This document shows positions 11,828 to 44,986 of a stretch of DNA of 64,000 nt, piece by piece (within the stretch, counting starts at the first letter, position 1; every line of letters begins with the position of its first letter). This DNA comes from an uncultured Coriobacteriaceae bacterium (GTDB lineage: Bacteria; Actinomycetota; Coriobacteriia; Coriobacteriales; Coriobacteriaceae), in assembly GCA_944321435.1 (NCBI GenBank), contig CALULH010000006.1:62001-126000 (forward strand), given 5' to 3'. The notes under the pieces are model-generated. The model did not search any database. It saw nothing but the letters and a program-made list of their open reading frames with translations, and was not told where the DNA came from. The position numbers and the translations under genes were made by a program.

Positions 11828-11883
11828 TTACCTGGGCAAATTGGCACTTCTTTTCTGCCAGCGGACGCATAGCCCATAGGCGG

Positions 11884-11900
11884 TTGATACTTTTTGATAC
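11884..11900. promoter_or_regulatory. Candidate RpiR operator: TTGATAC direct repeats
   Basis: TTGATAC occurs at 11884-11890 and 11894-11900, spaced 10 bp (one helical turn), in the divergent region between the GH1 gene and the RpiR gene. Including the flanking GG and CC, it also reads as an imperfect palindrome. Assignment to RpiR rests on position only. Confidence 0.4.
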
Positions 11901-11969
11901 CATGAGGGGCAGTAAGCGCAGCGGGCGCCGTGCAGGCGAGCGCCGTCAACGTGGCAGGAAAGGGGTCCC

Positions 11970-12845
11970 ATGGGCATCAAGCAGCGCATCCGCGAGGGAC
12001 GCGGGTTCACCCCTACCGAGGAGCGCCTGGGCCAAGTGGTCCTCGCGCTCGACGAGCGCCTGCAACGGCTTTCGATCAAGGAGCTTTCGCACACCAGCGC
12101 CACCTCCATCGCCAGCATCCACCGCTTTTGCAAGAAATTGGGGCTCGAGGGATACAAGGAGCTCAAGGTCGAGATCGCCCGCGAGACAGCGCGCGGTGAC
12201 GAGCCGGACGTGGACATCAACTTCCCGTTCGCCGCAAACGACCGAGCGCGCAGCGTGATACCCGCCATGCGCGCGGTCTACGAATCCACGCTGCGGGACA
12301 CGGGCAAGACGCTCAAGCCCGACGCCCTCGACCGTGCGGCGAGTATTTTGGTGCGTGCGCGAAGGATCGATATCTACACGCAATCGCACAACCTGTTCCC
12401 CGCCCAGATGTTCTGCGACCGCCTGCTGTCAGCAGGCCGCGAGGCAACCTGCCACGAGAGCGTTGAGCGCCAGCTGCGCTGCGCCCTGGCATCGGAGCCG
12501 GACTGCGCGGCGGTGGTCATCTCCTACTCCGGCCTCAACGAGAACATCGGCACTATCCTGCCCCTCTTGGCCGAACGGGGCACTCCCGCGGTGCTCATAG
12601 GCACCGCGCACGCCCGGCGCTTGCACCCGGGACTCGACGCCTACCTTGAGGTGAGCGACCAAGAGCACCTGCAAGAGCGTATCACGCAGTTTGCAAGCCA
12701 TATTGCGGTGCAGTACGTGCTGGACAGCCTGTTCGGCTGCGTTTTTGCCCGCTCTTACGACAAGCACCTGGCGTTTTTACAGCGGTCCCTCCCCTACACG
12801 CGCCTGGGCCAGAAGGAGGCCGCAACGCAACGGGCACAGAAGTAA
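11970..12845 (+). CDS. RpiR/MurR-family regulator with SIS domain
   Basis: The 291-residue protein has an N-terminal RpiR helix-turn-helix (TPTEERLGQVVLALDERL ... TSATSIASIHRFCKKLG) and a C-terminal SIS sugar-phosphate-binding domain from about residue 120 (ARRIDIYTQS, VVISYSGLNENIG). Such regulators sense phosphosugars. Divergent placement against two 6-phospho-beta-glucosidases makes it their likely regulator. A GGAAAGG lies 11 bases before the ATG. Whether it activates or represses cannot be told. Confidence 0.9.
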   Translation: MGIKQRIREGRGFTPTEERLGQVVLALDERLQRLSIKELSHTSATSIASIHRFCKKLGLEGYKELKVEIARETARGDEPDVDINFPFAANDRARSVIPAMRAVYESTLRDTGKTLKPDALDRAASILVRARRIDIYTQSHNLFPAQMFCDRLLSAGREATCHESVERQLRCALASEPDCAAVVISYSGLNENIGTILPLLAERGTPAVLIGTAHARRLHPGLDAYLEVSDQEHLQERITQFASHIAVQYVLDSLFGCVFARSYDKHLAFLQRSLPYTRLGQKEAATQRAQK

Positions 12846-12850
12846 CACGG

Positions 12851-12914
12851 GATGAAATCGACCCTTTTTCTGATTTCTTTTTGCCACGTGGACGAAATCG
12901 ACCTTTTTTCTGAT
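12851..12914. repeat. Tandem copies of a dispersed GAAATCGACC...TCTGATTTC motif
   Basis: Two units lie just after the RpiR stop, at 12851-12876 and 12888-12914. Each contains GAAATC and GATTTC arms around a T-rich centre. The second unit is identical over 27 bases to 32595-32621. A related piece (CGAATCAGAAAA) follows at about 13096. The rest of the 360-base gap up to 13205 is AT-richer than its surroundings and shows no gene. Confidence 0.7.
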
Positions 12915-13205
12915 TTTGCGCGAGCCTCAATACCTCAGCCATAGGATCTGTTGCCCCATTTGTACTCAATAGAGCATGTTTTGGGGTGCGTTGCGGCACT
13001 TGATCAAGCGTTTTTCCCTGGTTTTATTACGGGCAACATGAGTTAGCCGCATCTAAAAGCAGAAAAATGTTCGATTTTATCCAACAGCGGGATGCGAATC
13101 AGAAAAGCCCTTCGTCTTGTCCCAAACCGCGTCCGCTCGCAAAAGACAAGGCGACTCTGTCTTATCGATCCCCCCGTTCATGCAAGCAGGCGCAAAACGC
13201 CTGCA

Positions 13206-14030
13206 TCAAGCCAAGCCGCCCAGCACGAACTTCTCGATCACCTCGGCAACGCCGCCCTGGGCGTTGTCAGCCTCGGCGAGGTAGTCCAGGTCGGGGCGCA
13301 TCTCGGGTCGGGCGTTCGCCACGCCGGCGCCCAGGCCCGCCGCACGGATCATGGGCAGGTCGTTGAGGTTGTCGCCAATGGCGATGGTATCCGCCATGTC
13401 GATGCCCAGGATTCCGGCCAGCCGAGCCAAGCCGGCACCCTTGTCCACGCCGCGCGGGTTGAGCTCCAGATAGCGGTTGGACGAGTAGCTGATTGCCAGC
13501 TGCGGCGCCAGATCGGAGAGATCGGACGCAATGGAGCGCAGGTACCCCATGTCGGAGTTCATGAAGATGAGTTTCATGATACGGTCGTCGGCCAGCGCGG
13601 ACAGGTCAACCCAGAAGACCTCTTTGAGCGGCATGCCGCGCCCCTCCAGGTTGGCGCGCTCCTCGTCGTTGTAGCGCGAGAGGTAGATGGCGTCGAGGGT
13701 GTACACGTGCACGCAGACGTCGTAGGACCGCGCACGGCGGAAAAGCTCCTCGGCCAGGGCGTGGTCGAGCGCGGTGCACGAAAGCAGGCGGTTGCCGGCG
13801 TTCTCGGTAATGGCCCCGCCGTTGAAGGAAATGGTGTACTCGCCCTTCTGCCCGAGAAGCCCCAGCTGGTCGAGCGTGTCGTCAACCGTGTTGTAGCCGC
13901 GGCCCGTAGCGCACACGAACCGCACCCCGCGCTCGCGGGCGGCGCGGATGGCGTCGACGTTGCGCTGGCAGATGCGGTGACCCGGGGCAAGGAGCGTCTC
14001 ATCAAGGTCGCTTGCGATGAGCTGGTACAT
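13206..14030 (-). CDS. Cof-type HAD phosphatase
   Basis: This 274-residue haloacid dehalogenase-superfamily protein has motif I (IASDLDETLL), motif II (FVCATGRG), motif III Lys in PRGVDKGAG, and motif IV (AIGDNLNDLPMI). The C2-type cap lies between motifs II and III. It is a Mg-dependent phosphatase on sugar phosphates or flavin nucleotides. The exact substrate is not readable. ATG 14030 follows GAAAGGGGAGG. A TATAAT box sits at 14060-14055 on the minus strand, but with no good -35. A second member of the family lies at 29815. Confidence 0.9.
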   Translation of the reverse strand: MYQLIASDLDETLLAPGHRICQRNVDAIRAARERGVRFVCATGRGYNTVDDTLDQLGLLGQKGEYTISFNGGAITENAGNRLLSCTALDHALAEELFRRARSYDVCVHVYTLDAIYLSRYNDEERANLEGRGMPLKEVFWVDLSALADDRIMKLIFMNSDMGYLRSIASDLSDLAPQLAISYSSNRYLELNPRGVDKGAGLARLAGILGIDMADTIAIGDNLNDLPMIRAAGLGAGVANARPEMRPDLDYLAEADNAQGGVAEVIEKFVLGGLA

Positions 14031-14158
14031 GGCCTCCCCTTTCGTTCCGATGCGATTATAGGAGAAGCGCGCTGAGAGGTGCGTTTCAATATGAGGCACG
14101 CTGAAGCGGGACGAGATGAGAAAAAGATGCGAAGGCAGGCGGAGGACCCGCCGAGAAG

Positions 14159-14205
14159 CACGGCGCAAACCCCGCGGGCGGCAGCGGCCACGGCGCAAAC
14201 CCCGC
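14159..14205. repeat. 17-bp direct repeat, period 30
   Basis: CACGGCGCAAACCCCGC occurs at 14159-14175 and again at 14189-14205. It lies in the 304-base gap between the MFS and HAD genes. Otherwise I see only GC-rich sequence there. Confidence 0.6.
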
Positions 14206-14334
14206 ACGGCCCCATGACGGCCAGGGGCGCAAGGCCCGCCGCCCACCCAGCCCAGAAGGCGCGGCACGACGCCCTTGACGCTGCCCGCCAAGCCGCCGCC
14301 CAACCGGCCCGGAAGGCGCGTTTGCGCGGAGATC

Positions 14335-15609
14335 CTAGCCCCGCCGGTCCTCCGCCCGGCGCTTCTCCTCGGCAACCAGCCGCGCAATGCGGCGGCGCGC
14401 CGCCACCATGCACAGCACCGGAAAACCCGCCACAAGGCAGCTCGCCCCCACGAGCACGCCCTGCACGCCAAGGGCCTCGGCCAGCCACGGCGCCGCGAAC
14501 AGCGGCAGCACGCCCGCCGACGTCAGCCCAGCGCTGATGACGGCGTTGACGCGGCCCAGGCTCTCGAGCGGGGCATGGGTCTGCACGAGCGTGCTCTGCA
14601 TGGGCTGCATGAGCCCGAAGGCGGTGCCCAGCGTCACCTGCCCCGCAAGAGCCACACCCACATAAGGCGTCGAGACGTACATGATGCAGCCAACGCCCAT
14701 GAGCGCGAGCACCCACAAAAGGGAGCGCATGTTGACGAAGCGGTGGGGAACGCGCACCGCGATGAGCGAGCCGAGCAAACAGCCGAGCCCCGCCGCGCTG
14801 GAAAGCCACCCCATCCACTCCACGCCCACGTCCAGCACGTCGCGGTAAAACAAGGATTCCAGGGGGTCGAACGCCCCGAAGCCCAGGAACGAGAAGAACC
14901 CGGCCCAAAAGAGCAGCGTGAGCGTGGGGCTGCCGAAGGCAACGCGCGCGCCGTCCCAAAGCGACGCGGAAGCGCGCGCGGCACCGTCCTTCTCGCCCGC
15001 CGCCGCAGGCAGCGCCGCGCGCCGGGACTTGAAGCCGCACGCGGGTACAAGGGACGTGAGGGCGCAGACGAGGGTGAAGCCGAACACCGCCTGCGACGGG
15101 GCCACGCTCGCGATGACGCCTCCCACAAGCGGCCCCACGATCACCGCCACTTGCGAGGCAGAGGAGATGACGGCGTTGAGGCGCTTGAGCTGCGCCGCGT
15201 CATCCGTGAGGTAGGCGGGGTACGAGCGCAGCACCGGCTCGCCCAGGCCCGCGGCAAAGCCCAAGGCCGCCGCGCCCGCAAGCACGCCGCCAGCGCTGGA
15301 GGCCAAGGTGAGCGTGAGCAGGCTCGCCGCCGCAAGCATGCCCGCCAAAGCCGCAAAGTGCCTGCGCGGCCCCACGCGGTCGAGCAGGGTGCCTCCCGCG
15401 GCGTTTCCAAGCACTTGGAGCAGGTTGAGAAGCCCCACCGAGCAGGCCAGCGCCACGGTGCTCGCGCCCATCTGGTAAGCGAGGGTCCCCATGATGCCGA
15501 TGAAGTACGAGGTCTGGACGCCCAAGTAGGCAAGGAAGCGCATAGCGACCAGGCAGTACGCTGAACGCCGTACGTCGGGCGCGTCCAAGGAGCGCAAGGC
15601 AAAGGGCAT
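14335..15609 (-). CDS. MFS transporter (probable efflux)
   Basis: The 424-residue protein has about 12 hydrophobic segments and a cytoplasmic loop between TM2 and TM3 containing LLDRVGPRRHFA, the MFS motif A region. Overall layout resembles the small drug or metabolite exporters of the major facilitator superfamily. The substrate is unknown. It is transcribed divergently from moaA with 182 bases between. The C-terminus is Arg-rich (RRRIARLVAEEKRRAEDRRG), consistent with a cytoplasmic tail. Confidence 0.85.
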   Translation of the reverse strand: MPFALRSLDAPDVRRSAYCLVAMRFLAYLGVQTSYFIGIMGTLAYQMGASTVALACSVGLLNLLQVLGNAAGGTLLDRVGPRRHFAALAGMLAAASLLTLTLASSAGGVLAGAAALGFAAGLGEPVLRSYPAYLTDDAAQLKRLNAVISSASQVAVIVGPLVGGVIASVAPSQAVFGFTLVCALTSLVPACGFKSRRAALPAAAGEKDGAARASASLWDGARVAFGSPTLTLLFWAGFFSFLGFGAFDPLESLFYRDVLDVGVEWMGWLSSAAGLGCLLGSLIAVRVPHRFVNMRSLLWVLALMGVGCIMYVSTPYVGVALAGQVTLGTAFGLMQPMQSTLVQTHAPLESLGRVNAVISAGLTSAGVLPLFAAPWLAEALGVQGVLVGASCLVAGFPVLCMVAARRRIARLVAEEKRRAEDRRG

Positions 15610-38070: not shown

Positions 38071-40671
<2,601 letters not shown>

Positions 40672-40694: not shown

Positions 40695-40901
40695 CTACTT
40701 GCCCTCGTCCTCCTCGATGGCGGCGTCGATAACCGCGCGATAGGCAGCCTGCTCGGCCTCCTTGATGCGCAGCTTCTCAGCCCAGGCATCCATGGGATGG
40801 GTGCCCCAGACCTCGGCGAACGCCTTGGCGCCCACAAAGGCCAAACCTGCGACGACCGCGATGAGGCCCACGAGGATCGCCGGAACGACAACGTAGATCA
40901 T
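40695..40901 (-). CDS. Short membrane-anchor protein in the rnfB position
   Basis: The 68-residue protein has one N-terminal TM helix (about residues 3-29, MIYVVVPAILVGLIAVVAGL...) followed by ~40 charged residues ending AIEEDEGK. It has no cysteine. It occupies the slot where rnfB stands in rnfCDGEAB operons, and the helix followed by a KAFA-like turn resembles the RnfB membrane anchor. The [4Fe-4S] and ferredoxin domains of RnfB (normally 200 residues or more) are absent, and a terminator follows. AAGGAGG overlapping the rnfA stop sets ATG 40901. Identity as a reduced RnfB is inferred. Confidence 0.6.
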   Translation of the reverse strand: MIYVVVPAILVGLIAVVAGLAFVGAKAFAEVWGTHPMDAWAEKLRIKEAEQAAYRAVIDAAIEEDEGK

Positions 40902-40913
40902 GCGCAATCCTCC

Positions 40914-41504
40914 TTACACGAACAGACCAGACACGGCGCCGTTGATACCCACGAAGGCCAGCGCCATGAGCGCGGCGGTGAGCACCGAGATGGGCAGACC
41001 GCGCAGCGCAGCGGGCACCTGGGCGTCGTTGACGCGCCCGCGCAGCGTGGCGAAGAGCACCACGGCGATAAACGCGCCCAGACCGGCGCCGATGGCGGTG
41101 CCGGCACCCACATCAAAGGTGCAGTCCGCCTCGGCGATGGAAAGCGGGCAGGCAAGGAGGCACGCGTTCAGCGCAATGGCCGTGCAGATGACCATGGCGT
41201 CGCGGCGCTCCTCAAGCGGCTTCTTCGCAGCGAGCATGCCGCCTACGAGGAACACCACGGCAGAGGCCACCATGAGATACACGATGGGAGCCAGGTAGGA
41301 GATCCCCCACGGCTGCAGCAGCAGGTAGTACAGGGGCCAGCCCAGGATGCCCGATACGGCGGTAGCTCCCCAAAGGCCCAGGCCGAAACGCACGGACTCC
41401 TCCGGGCGCAGCGCGAGCACCATGACGCTCGCCATGCCCACCAACTGCACGAAGACCAGGTTGTTGTCGAGCGCGGCGGTGAAAAGCGCGTTCAGGAACT
41501 CCAT
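40914..41504 (-). CDS. rnfA: Rnf complex subunit A (Cys-depleted variant)
   Basis: This 196-residue integral membrane protein with six TM helices aligns without gaps to E. coli RsxA through its second half (VVLFATLRGRV...VPAALRG) and its first (LDNNLVFVQLVGMASVM). The two cysteines that in RnfA/NqrE bind the membrane [2Fe-2S] cluster are replaced. The first (LGLCPFM) is Ala (VGMASVM). The second (TNCAVLG) is Ala with a Cys one residue later (LNACLLA). Its start overlaps the rnfE stop (TAATG). Confidence 0.9.
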   Translation of the reverse strand: MEFLNALFTAALDNNLVFVQLVGMASVMVLALRPEESVRFGLGLWGATAVSGILGWPLYYLLLQPWGISYLAPIVYLMVASAVVFLVGGMLAAKKPLEERRDAMVICTAIALNACLLACPLSIAEADCTFDVGAGTAIGAGLGAFIAVVLFATLRGRVNDAQVPAALRGLPISVLTAALMALAFVGINGAVSGLFV

Positions 41505-42151
41505 TACTCCTCACCTCCGTCAGATGCGGCGGACGCCTTGAACAGGCCGCCCTCCAGGCTCTGCACGAACACGGCAACCAGCGTGAGCACCAGCAGCGAT
41601 CCGGCAGGCTTTCCGAAGACGGCAACCGGCGTCTCGGCGAGCTCGGTCATGGTCAGGCCGAAGATCTCGCCGGTGGCGAGCATGCCGTTAACAAGGCCGG
41701 TGAACGTAAGCGTGGCGAGCACGGCGACCGCGCCCAGAACGCCCGTCGCAACGCCGCCCTTGGCGGGTACAACCACCATGTCGCTCTTGGCCACGAAGGT
41801 CATGGCGAGGGCGTTGGTGGCGGCCAGCGGCAGGTACATGCCCAGGGCAACCTGGACTGCGGGGTCGATCAGATAGACGGCCAGGTCGAGCAGCGCAACC
41901 ACGGCGGCGCTGATCATGAGCGCCACGGGAATGCGCGTGACCCAGTTGGTCAAACGGTTGATGAGCGGCATGGCAAGGGCCATGACCACAATCGCAACAG
42001 CGGAGACAGCGCCGATCGCAAAGCCCTGCTCGAGCGTGTTGGCCACCGCAAGGCCCGGAAGCGAGCCCGCGACGACCAGGAACACCGGACTCGAGAGGGT
42101 CTTCTCAAGGCGCGCCTGGCGCTGTGCCGCAATGTAGGGGTGCAACGCCAT
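41504..42151 (-). CDS. rnfE: Rnf complex subunit E (Cys-depleted variant)
   Basis: This 215-residue membrane subunit homologous to RnfE/NqrD has six TM helices. The position of the first cluster cysteine (family LGLCPLLAV) reads AGSLPGLAV, and the second (family TNCIVVG) reads TNALAMT. Both [2Fe-2S] ligands are therefore missing. Family members are usually similar in length. ATG 42151 follows GGGAGGG. It is 1 base after rnfG and overlaps rnfA, so it is tightly coupled in the operon. Confidence 0.88.
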   Translation of the reverse strand: MALHPYIAAQRQARLEKTLSSPVFLVVAGSLPGLAVANTLEQGFAIGAVSAVAIVVMALAMPLINRLTNWVTRIPVALMISAAVVALLDLAVYLIDPAVQVALGMYLPLAATNALAMTFVAKSDMVVVPAKGGVATGVLGAVAVLATLTFTGLVNGMLATGEIFGLTMTELAETPVAVFGKPAGSLLVLTLVAVFVQSLEGGLFKASAASDGGEE

Positions 42152-42152
42152 G

Positions 42153-42725
42153 TTAGTTCCCTCCCAACTGCTGATAAGCCTGAATGGCGATGTTGACATC
42201 CTCGATCACCGCGGTGGAGGTGAAGGTGGCGCCGGACACGCCGTCCACATGGGCCGCGTCGCCGGTGGCGTCCTCGATAGTGACGCCGGTATCGGTCGCG
42301 GTACCCGCGAAGCTGGCCAAGTAATCCTCGGCCAGGGCGTTGGTGCCGATGCCGTCGGTCTCGGAGTGGCTTACGATCTGCACACCCACCACGCCGGTGG
42401 AGTCGATACCCACCATGAGGCGCACGAGACCGGCATAGCCCTGGCTCTCGACCTCGAAAACGTATCCGCCGGTATCGGCCTGGTAAACGGAGACGAGGCC
42501 CTCGATGTCGGGGGCGGAGACGCTGGTGAACGAACCGGCGTCGGGGAACAGAAGCGCGCGCTGCTCGCCGCCCTGGGCCTGCTCAAGGCGAGCGTCGGCC
42601 TCGGTCAGGGCGTCGGTTGCCGCGAAGCGGGCACCGGAGACAACGAGCGTGCAGACGACCGCGACGACGAGCACCGCGAGAAACGAGTACCCGAAACGGT
42701 CGCGACGGGGTTTAGGCGAGGGCAC
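42153..42725 (-). CDS. rnfG: Rnf complex subunit G (FMN-binding)
   Basis: The 190-residue protein has one N-terminal TM helix (YSFLAVLVVAVVCTLVV) and an extracytoplasmic FMN-binding domain. The flavin is attached covalently to the Thr of SGATFTS near residue 175, so this motif is intact. I choose GTG 42725 because GGGAGG stands 8 bases before it; the frame could begin 10 codons earlier. It overlaps the end of rnfD by 14 bases. Confidence 0.9.
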   Translation of the reverse strand: MPSPKPRRDRFGYSFLAVLVVAVVCTLVVSGARFAATDALTEADARLEQAQGGEQRALLFPDAGSFTSVSAPDIEGLVSVYQADTGGYVFEVESQGYAGLVRLMVGIDSTGVVGVQIVSHSETDGIGTNALAEDYLASFAGTATDTGVTIEDATGDAAHVDGVSGATFTSTAVIEDVNIAIQAYQQLGGN

Positions 42726-43644
42726 GCTTAACACCTCCCTCAGGCTTGGGAGCACAGAGCTTGTCGATCAGCGGAACGAGCATGTTCATGAACAGGATGG
42801 AGTAGGCAACGCCCTCCGGAGCGCTCGCGAAGAAGCGCACGAAGGAGGTGATGAGGCCGCACCCCACGCCGAACACAACCTTGCCGGTCTGCGTCATGGG
42901 CGTGGTGGTGTAGTCGGTGGCCATGAAGAAGGCGCCCAGCGCAAGACCGCCGGAGAGCAACTGCGCCAGCACGTCGTTGCCGGTGATGAGGCTCATGACC
43001 GCCACAACGCCGACGAACGGAAGCGTGGCCCAGGCGTCGACGATCCTCATGACGAGCAGGAACACATAACCGATGAGGAGCGTGATGATGCAGGTCTCGC
43101 CCAGCGCGCCCGCATGGTTGCCCAGAAGCAGGTCAAGATAGCTATGGTTGAAGGTGCCCGCCGTCATCTCGGCCAGCGGAGTTGCCCCGGTGATGGCGTC
43201 AAGCGGCGTGCCCTCGGGCGCGGGATAGCTGCCCAGCGCCGACGGGAAGGCCACCATCAGGAAGATGCGGCCGGCCACCGCCGGGTTGAACACGTTGCAA
43301 CCGATACCACCGAAGAGCATCTTGACCACCACGATGGCGAATGCGGTACCCAGGGCCGCGATCCAGAAGGGGCAGTCGGCCGGCAGGGTCATGGCGAGCA
43401 GCATGGCCGTGACCACGCACGAGAAATCGTCCGCCGTGGACGGACGACGCTGGATGAGGCAGCACAGGTGCTCGCACACGAGCGCCGTGGCGATGCACGC
43501 CAGAACCAGGATGGGCGCGCCCAGACCGTAGAGCACCGTTGCGGCGATCACGGTCGGCAGCAGGGCCAGGCACACGCACCCCATGATCTTGGGAGTGGAG
43601 TCCTTCCCCATGAAATGGGGGGAGCCCTCGACGATGAGCTTCAT
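42712..43644 (-). CDS. rnfD: Rnf complex subunit D (ion-translocating core)
   Basis: This 310-residue, roughly ten-TM subunit homologous to RnfD/NqrB has the covalent FMN site at the Thr of DAITGATPL, intact. GCNVFNPAVAGRIF and the MATDYTTTPMT region match the family core. It is the presumed Na+ or H+ channel of the complex. Its start codon is 1 base after the rnfC stop. Unlike RnfA and RnfE here, it keeps its cofactor site. Confidence 0.94.
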   Translation of the reverse strand: MKLIVEGSPHFMGKDSTPKIMGCVCLALLPTVIAATVLYGLGAPILVLACIATALVCEHLCCLIQRRPSTADDFSCVVTAMLLAMTLPADCPFWIAALGTAFAIVVVKMLFGGIGCNVFNPAVAGRIFLMVAFPSALGSYPAPEGTPLDAITGATPLAEMTAGTFNHSYLDLLLGNHAGALGETCIITLLIGYVFLLVMRIVDAWATLPFVGVVAVMSLITGNDVLAQLLSGGLALGAFFMATDYTTTPMTQTGKVVFGVGCGLITSFVRFFASAPEGVAYSILFMNMLVPLIDKLCAPKPEGGVKRALA

Positions 43645-43645
43645 G

Positions 43646-44986
43646 CTACTTACCTCCCTTCGCTTCGTCGGCCAGGCGACGCGTCTCGGTGCGGTAGAAC
43701 GCCTTGCCGTTGCGGATGGAATCGTTGATGCGGCGATGCGCCGGGCACGCGTACGTGCACGAGCCGCAGTCCATGCAGTTCATAACGCCCAGCTCGTCGA
43801 GCGCCAGCAGGTTCTTGTTGGCAGAGGCAACCGCCAGGCCCGTCGGGTTCAGGCTCAAGGGACAAGCGCGCACGCAGCGGCCGCACTTGATGCACGGCGT
43901 CGCCTCGGGCAGCACCGCTAGATCGTCCCAGCACAGGATGGCGTTGTTTGCCTTGAGGACCGGGCAGTCGAGGCTGGAGATGGCGCGCCCCATCATGGGA
44001 CCGCCCATAAGCACCTTCTTGGGATCCTTGACCAGGCCGCCCGCCGCCTCGATGACGTCGCGCACGTTCATGCCGATCGGCACGCGGTAGTTGCCCGGGT
44101 TCTTCACGCAGTCGCCCGCGACGGTGATGGTCTTGCGCACCAACGGCTCGCCGTAGCGGAAGTACTCCTCCACGCGCGAAACCGAGGTCACGTTCATCAC
44201 AAGGCAGCCCGCGTCCACAGGCAGGCCGCCCGCGGGAACCGCGCGGCCCGTAGTCGCCATAATGAGGACCTTCTCGCCGCCGGCGGGGTACTTGGTGGGA
44301 ACCGCCATGACCTCGACCTTGTCGCCCACGCCCTTCTCGGCGATGGTCTTGTTGAGCAGCTCGACGGCCTCGGGCTTGTTGTCCTCGATGCCGATAACCG
44401 CACCCGGGATCTCAAGCGCCTCGATGATGCGGGAGCAGCCGTCGATGATGCGGCCGGGATGCTCCATCATCTGACGGAAATCCGAGGTGATGAACGGCTC
44501 GCACTCCATGCCGTTGACCACCAGGTAGTCGAACTTCTTGCCCTCGGGCGCCTTCATCTTGAACCACGTGGGGAACGAGGCGCCGCCCAGGCCCACCACG
44601 CCGGAAGCGCGCACGCAGTCGATGAACTCGTCCTTCGTGCTGTAGCTGGGCTTGACGATGGACGGATCCTGCTCCATCTTGCCGTCGCCCTCGATCTCGA
44701 CCACGGGCGCGGTCTGGCCGGTGGGCAGCTGCTCGGTGGCGACCGAGGTCACCGTGCCGGAGATGCTGGCGTGGATGGGCGCGCACAGGCCCGTTCCATC
44801 GCCGATCAGCGTTCCCACGTAAACGTGGTCGCCCACGGAGACACAAGGCGTGCACGGCGCGCCGATGTGCATGTTCAGCGGAATGCGCACCTGCTGGGGC
44901 GGCTCAACATACACAACGGGGCAGTCGCGCGTGTCCTTGTGCTGCGGCGGATGAACTCCGCCCTTTGTCTTGTGCAGCGAGAACAT
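43646..44986 (-). CDS. rnfC: Rnf complex subunit C (NADH-binding, 2x[4Fe-4S])
   Basis: The 446-residue peripheral subunit has an N-terminal barrel-sandwich domain (GGVHPPQHKDT), the Gly-rich FMN/NADH region (GLGGASFPTWFK...GKKFDYLVVNGMECEP) and two complete cluster motifs CIKCGRCVRACP and CMDCGSCTYACP near residues 370-425. It should exchange electrons with NAD(H). It is the first gene of the operon. The ~250 bases upstream include an AT-rich stretch (about 45090-45200) that probably holds the promoter, but no element is clear. Confidence 0.95.
   Translation of the reverse strand: MFSLHKTKGGVHPPQHKDTRDCPVVYVEPPQQVRIPLNMHIGAPCTPCVSVGDHVYVGTLIGDGTGLCAPIHASISGTVTSVATEQLPTGQTAPVVEIEGDGKMEQDPSIVKPSYSTKDEFIDCVRASGVVGLGGASFPTWFKMKAPEGKKFDYLVVNGMECEPFITSDFRQMMEHPGRIIDGCSRIIEALEIPGAVIGIEDNKPEAVELLNKTIAEKGVGDKVEVMAVPTKYPAGGEKVLIMATTGRAVPAGGLPVDAGCLVMNVTSVSRVEEYFRYGEPLVRKTITVAGDCVKNPGNYRVPIGMNVRDVIEAAGGLVKDPKKVLMGGPMMGRAISSLDCPVLKANNAILCWDDLAVLPEATPCIKCGRCVRACPLSLNPTGLAVASANKNLLALDELGVMNCMDCGSCTYACPAHRRINDSIRNGKAFYRTETRRLADEAKGGK

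Follow-up and report, generated by a model that had tools for sequence, protein, structure and literature searches.

What can an Rnf complex still do when the route by which ferredoxin delivers electrons to it has been removed? The question is raised by an operon in a 64,000-nucleotide stretch of DNA from an uncultured Coriobacteriaceae bacterium (assembly GCA_944321435.1, contig CALULH010000006.1, positions 62,001 to 126,000; hereafter, the window). Six tightly packed open reading frames (ORFs) on the minus strand, from 44986 to 40695, encode RnfC, RnfD, RnfG, RnfE, RnfA and, in the slot of rnfB, a protein of 68 residues; neighbouring genes are 1 to 12 bases apart or, in two cases, overlap, and the operon is closed by a strong intrinsic terminator-like hairpin (40589..40621, minus strand, 14 pairs followed by a run of T). 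We observed that the ferredoxin half of the complex has lost its cofactor ligands while the half that handles NADH (reduced nicotinamide adenine dinucleotide) and flavins has kept them. We consider it probable that the product is a halved Rnf, a single-path conduit from NADH through RnfC, RnfD and RnfG to an extracytosolic acceptor, with RnfA, RnfE and the short protein as a scaffold. All features given below lie on the minus strand unless another contig is named.

In the Rnf complex of Acetobacterium woodii the membrane [2Fe-2S] cluster is held by C25 and C113 of RnfA and by C25 and C108 of RnfE (PMC11889175). Published accounts treat this cluster as strictly conserved and locate Na+ pumping at it (PMC12174285, PMC11889175), and mutation of its cysteines abolished both ferredoxin:NAD activity and growth (PMC11889175). 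Ligand positions were mapped by phmmer alignments of the window's RnfA and RnfE to the solved chains; the four columns are occupied by Ala25 (41430..41432) and Ala114 (41163..41165) in RnfA and by Leu31 (42059..42061) and Ala114 (41810..41812) in RnfE. We surveyed 67 genomes of the window's family (Coriobacteriaceae, gut-type actinobacteria), 30 with rnf and 37 without, and no cysteine was present at any of the four columns in the 30 carriers. The column of RnfA Cys25 holds Val in 27 genomes, Ala in 2 and Leu in 1, and that of Cys113 holds Ala in 29 and Ser in 1; in RnfE the column of Cys25 is Leu in all 30, and that of Cys108 is Ala in 18 and Gly in 12. The absence of the four cysteines, reported for the window in a preliminary description of the locus, is thus a property of its relatives as well.

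The loss extends beyond the cluster. Residues implicated in Na+ transfer in A. woodii, by mutation or simulation, are E88 and T110 of RnfA and R67 and E115 of RnfE, while RnfD reportedly moves electrons only, not Na+. When the family proteins were aligned to these, neither RnfA E88 nor RnfA T110 was found in any of the 30 genomes; RnfE E115 was Glu in 3 and Asp in 20, and the presumed position of R67 was kept in 21. Among residues invariant in the canonical complexes of the class, RnfE of the family has kept 5 and lost 27, and RnfA has kept 12 and lost 20.

One could ask whether the cysteines have merely shifted. New cysteines are indeed frequent at C107 of RnfA (23/30) and at one RnfE column (21/30, Ala143 in the window), but no cysteine of RnfA or RnfE is common to all 30 family members. 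The preliminary description had suggested that Cys115 of RnfA, the residue next to the ligand column, could be used instead; as this residue occurs in only 7 of the 30 genomes and the RnfE of the window is free of cysteines, we rejected that option, and with it shifted cysteines as replacement ligands.

The slot of rnfB contains a single-transmembrane (TM) protein of 68 residues without an iron-sulfur (Fe-S) domain (40695..40901). A short TM ORF of about 50-70 residues follows rnfA in all 30 carriers (in one of them, L052, it was read by hand). This anchor has no Pfam or NCBIfam match, and its homology to the TM helix of RnfB could not be proven (hhalign probability 10%). The RnfB Fe-S domain, PF04060, was not detected in any of the 67 family genomes. 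Neither a second rnfB nor a second, cysteine-bearing rnfAE set is present in the window's genome (2.30 Mb, 94% complete), where PF02508 occurs as a single pair and PF04060 is absent. The four ligands, the Fe-S domain of RnfB and the residues of the Na+ network have therefore been lost in the family, and the known entry route for ferredoxin is broken, as the preliminary description held, with no substitute set in the genome.

The position, size and TM nature of the anchor are conserved, and this raised the possibility that a separate Fe-S protein docks on it and passes electrons to a relocated or non-cysteine cluster in RnfA and RnfE, the complex still being an Rnf of ferredoxin type. The frequent new cysteines mentioned above could be read in the same way. 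However, no RnfA or RnfE cysteine is shared by all 30 genomes, a docked protein would find no cluster in these subunits to receive its electrons, the residues of the Na+ site are lost as well, and no gene for a candidate partner adjoins the operon. We regard such docking, another of the options offered earlier, as very unlikely indeed.

How widely is the altered operon distributed, and is it functional? Outside the family but within the same class we considered 68 operons, 19 of them aligned and 49 scanned for motifs. Of the 19 aligned operons, 18-19 have a cysteine at each of the four columns, and a full RnfB followed wherever the sequence was readable. The motif scan of the other 49 detected the RnfB motif CGxCG in 47, the RnfA C113 motif in 46 and each of the two RnfE motifs in 48, with gaps due to contig ends, one copy bearing a stop codon and an over-strict pattern. 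Every operon that could be read thus has both the cysteines and an RnfB. In an otherwise canonical rnf operon from another family (genome G170, locus L165) we saw an in-frame TAG in the RnfE stretch and did not find the second cysteine motif; this copy may be defective or the product of misassembly.

Each of the five gene trees placed the family in a single clade, with the order's other two families as its sister group; in RnfA and RnfE a long branch leads to the family. Given this topology, a single origin from an ordinary Rnf, followed by vertical descent, is the most likely history of the variant. An assembly gap or a single odd genome is ruled out by the 30 genomes, some of which are assembled in one to three contigs. 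We confirm that the loss of the cluster and of RnfB is a fixed trait of the whole family.

Absence of rnf from 37 of the 67 family genomes might suggest that the operon is a functionless remnant on its way to disappearance. Such decay is scarcely tenable. The ratio of non-synonymous to synonymous substitution rates (dN/dS) for eight species pairs was 0.01-0.29 over all six genes (0.08-0.25 for the anchor), showing purifying selection on every gene and ruling out pseudogene status; all six frames are open in the 30 genomes, and the genes needed for flavinylation have been retained alongside the operon.

In the other half of the complex the cofactor ligands are retained. RnfC (446 residues, 43646..44986), the NADH/flavin mononucleotide (FMN) module with two [4Fe-4S] clusters, scores 446 bits against a cut-off of 246 for TIGR01945 and has the Complex1_51K, RnfC_N, SLBB and Fer4 domains. 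The eight cysteines of its [4Fe-4S] motifs, C365-C368-C371-C375 (43862..43894) and C404-C407-C410-C414 (43745..43777), are present in 30 of 30 family members and in 18 of 18 canonical proteins. RnfD (310 residues, 42712..43644), the flavin-bearing membrane subunit, reaches 273.6 bits for TIGR01946 (cut-off 207) and matches RnfD of Clostridium tetanomorphum with an E-value of 1.2e-69; it has kept Thr155, the covalent FMN site (motif DAITGAT, 43180..43182), and N117, N120 and D244 of the riboflavin site. RnfG (190 residues, GTG start, 42153..42725), the membrane-anchored exoplasmic FMN subunit, scores 55 bits for PF04205 (cut-off 22) and matches the C. tetanomorphum protein at 9.1e-18; its SGAT motif, with Thr167 as the covalent FMN site (42225..42227), is found in all 30 genomes. 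Flavinylation of both threonines is inferred from homologs. Among canonical-invariant residues RnfC has kept 72 and lost 12, RnfD has kept 53 and lost 4, and RnfG has kept 13 and lost 6.

The window proteins were also scored against curated NCBIfam models. Only RnfC and RnfD pass their cut-offs, whereas RnfG (59 bits, TIGR01947 cut-off 102), RnfE (215 residues, 41504..42151; 35 bits, TIGR01948 cut-off 213) and RnfA (196 residues, 40914..41504; 92 bits, TIGR01943 cut-off 229) fall below. With Pfam the operon shows FMN_bind, NQR2_RnfD_RnfE, two Rnf-Nqr domains (PF02508, 42 bits in RnfE against a cut-off of 23.8, and 67.8 bits in RnfA) and the domains of RnfC. Taken together, the losses in RnfA, RnfE and RnfB and the ligands retained in RnfC, RnfD and RnfG indicate that the limb from ferredoxin through RnfB to RnfA/E is gone, probably together with the pump, while the limb from NADH through RnfC and RnfD to RnfG is intact.

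It may be argued that ferredoxin still donates electrons, with RnfC rather than RnfB receiving them at its [4Fe-4S] clusters, from where they would pass to RnfD, RnfG and the outside. Both RnfC motifs are there in all genomes, and RnfC has gained three cysteines, C261, C293 and C341, which are invariant in the 30 family members and absent from canonical RnfC. Yet the NADH/FMN domain of Complex1_51K type shows no damage and its motif residues do not vary, so that NADH is a simpler donor than ferredoxin, and no ferredoxin-docking module has been added; this entry point is, in our judgement, improbable.

The gained cysteines of RnfC have counterparts in RnfD, where C61 is found in all 30 genomes in place of a Trp present in all canonical members; C62, C50, C185 and C262 are likewise found in all 30 and are partly present in canonical RnfD. 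These cysteines may bind a new centre, act as a redox switch or form disulfides. That a reversible ion-pumping ferredoxin complex became a dedicated NADH-driven electron exporter and that its kept half also gained a metal centre or redox switch (RnfC C261, C293 and C341; RnfD C61-C62) is a combined proposition we hold to be rather doubtful.

For the halved Rnf that we favour, the following path may be drawn. NADH would donate electrons to RnfC, with its FMN and two [4Fe-4S] clusters; from there they would move to the riboflavin and covalent FMN of RnfD, then to the covalent FMN of RnfG at the outer face, and finally to an acceptor outside the cytosol. With the ferredoxin half lost and the NADH and flavin half kept, the complex would probably work as a one-way wire from NADH to the outside. 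The limb from ferredoxin through RnfB and the RnfA/E [2Fe-2S] cluster to RnfG would be gone, and with it redox-driven Na+ pumping, so the variant complex probably does not pump ions. Among the three options of the preliminary description, the one that fitted best was that NADH drives the reduction, by way of RnfG, of an acceptor outside the cell. Assembly of the complex, direction of the electrons and existence of the outside acceptor are inferred.

Export of electrons costs membrane potential. A likely use of the complex is, for this reason, redox balance rather than energy conservation, i.e. it is likely to be an electron sink for regeneration of NAD+. Why RnfA, RnfE and the anchor would persist is suggested by the A. 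woodii complex, where the cavity of RnfA/E is the main docking site of RnfG, whose TM helix is packed against that of RnfB (PMC11889175); in view of these contacts, we read the three proteins as a putative scaffold for RnfG. Identical cofactors would also serve an inward path, from an external reductant through RnfG, RnfD and RnfC to NAD+, and the known Rnf is reversible (PMC11889175). Such a path, however, would need a donor outside the cytosol with a potential of about -320 mV or lower, and the operon has no conserved partner of this kind; we think it very unlikely.

For covalent FMN to be placed on an exoplasmic protein, ApbE has to be exported and flavin adenine dinucleotide (FAD) supplied. 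ApbE was found in 30/30 rnf carriers and in 7/37 non-carriers (Fisher test, P = 1e-12), and PF07456, the EetB-type FAD exporter, in 30/30 and 1/37, respectively (P = 3e-18); in both tests genomes were treated as independent though they are related. The role of EetB in FAD export has been demonstrated in Listeria (PMC9973259). RnfG is the sole FMN_bind protein in every carrier. Genes for exported flavinylation thus co-occur with the rnf variant across the family, and an ApbE, an exported FMN_bind target and an FAD exporter, the marks of extracytosolic flavinylation, are all present. In the window's genome an ApbE with a lipoprotein-type signal (read by eye) adjoins the PF07456 gene and a riboflavin-type energy-coupling factor (ECF) system. 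The genes lie on another contig, C10 (L113:8454-10401 and 11871-15400), and encode ApbE, the PF07456 protein, an ECF S component, a two-domain ATP-binding cassette ATPase and a CbiQ/EcfT protein.

The only non-carrier with PF07456, genome G167, has another exoplasmic electron system (L191:5196-14875), in which the genes of Tp47-domain and multi-FMN_bind proteins are clustered with those of ApbE, PF07456 and a membrane protein of Fer4_5 type; this cluster resembles the NapH-like class of Meheust 2021 (PMC8238504).

Which molecule could take the electrons? UbiA is present in 10 of the 30 carriers and in none of the non-carriers among the 67 genomes (Fisher test, P = 1e-4, relatedness ignored); in the window's own genome a UbiA-family prenyltransferase is encoded on contig C4 (L192:5618-7408). 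As UbiA is missing from 20 of the 30, quinone is ruled out as the general acceptor and cannot be the acceptor in most carriers.

Several observations weigh against an NADH-driven exporter with a passive scaffold. We looked for an acceptor protein and found none. The flanks of the operon hold no conserved partner gene; ligA lies downstream in 28/30 genomes and the gene of an HtrA-type protease upstream in 25/30 (names read from the sequences); as only these and other housekeeping genes are conserved there, a new partner subunit was rejected. Purifying selection continues to act on RnfA and RnfE, whose role may therefore go beyond holding RnfG. A fold prediction of RnfE from two sequences reached a predicted local distance difference test (pLDDT) score of 54 and was discarded.

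A natural, family-wide loss of the cluster under selection offers a ready test to separate the Rnf parts on which electron transfer depends from those on which pumping depends, and indicates that the semicircular path of Rnf can be split naturally into two halves. It also suggests a route of electron export in anaerobic gut-type bacteria. Annotation would label the variant as an ordinary Rnf, or overlook it where RnfB is required. In the 2021 eLife survey (Meheust, PMC8238504) RNF was assigned by the presence of RnfB; by this definition the variant would go uncounted. Our literature search, which left subscription papers and most preprints outside, found no description of an Rnf without RnfB in this form, in agreement with the preliminary description, and nothing joining RnfB with Coriobacteriia or Eggerthella lenta; where Collinsella and an Rnf complex are named together, one paper treats Rnf in connection with Bacteroides. 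The only relevant paper on Rnf without RnfB concerned the origin of NQR (PMC4014512).

Like canonical Rnf (A. woodii, C. tetanomorphum, Azotobacter vinelandii), the variant has the gene order C-D-G-E-A followed by the B slot, RnfC and RnfD that pass curated models, the FMN threonines, the riboflavin residues and both [4Fe-4S] motifs of RnfC; unlike canonical Rnf, it has no RnfB Fe-S domains and no [2Fe-2S] ligands in RnfA/E, its Na+-network residues are lost, and RnfA, RnfE and RnfG fall below curated cut-offs. With Listeria-type extracellular electron transfer (FmnB/EetB, PMC9973259) it shares an exported ApbE encoded next to an EetB-type PF07456 exporter and ECF genes, but no separate PplA-like FMN_bind lipoprotein accompanies RnfG in the carriers.

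The NQR/RNF-like two-subunit systems, reported mainly from Actinobacteria and the candidate phyla radiation, also have a single electron path, proposed to run from NAD(P)H to an exoplasmic FMN domain (PMC8238504, PMC10979944). In those systems, however, RnfD is fused to an NqrF domain (PF00175), RnfC, RnfA and RnfE are missing, and the RnfD-like subunit is without the FMN threonine. In the variant RnfC is the presumed input, RnfA/E and an anchor are retained, and RnfD carries PF03116 only, with no fusion to the PF00175 NAD-binding domain. Na+-NQR, in turn, goes back to an rnf operon from which RnfB disappeared, although an RnfB-like TM helix was kept (Reyes-Prieto 2014, PMC4014512). There the RnfA/E cluster was kept, NqrF was gained and the cofactors of RnfC were lost (PMC4014512, PMC12174285). 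In the variant the reverse is seen: the operon consists of C-D-G-E-A and the anchor alone, with no NqrF gene in it or among its conserved neighbours in the family, the RnfA/E cluster ligands are gone and those of RnfC are kept. As a single-path conduit the variant would be a mirror image of the origin of NQR.

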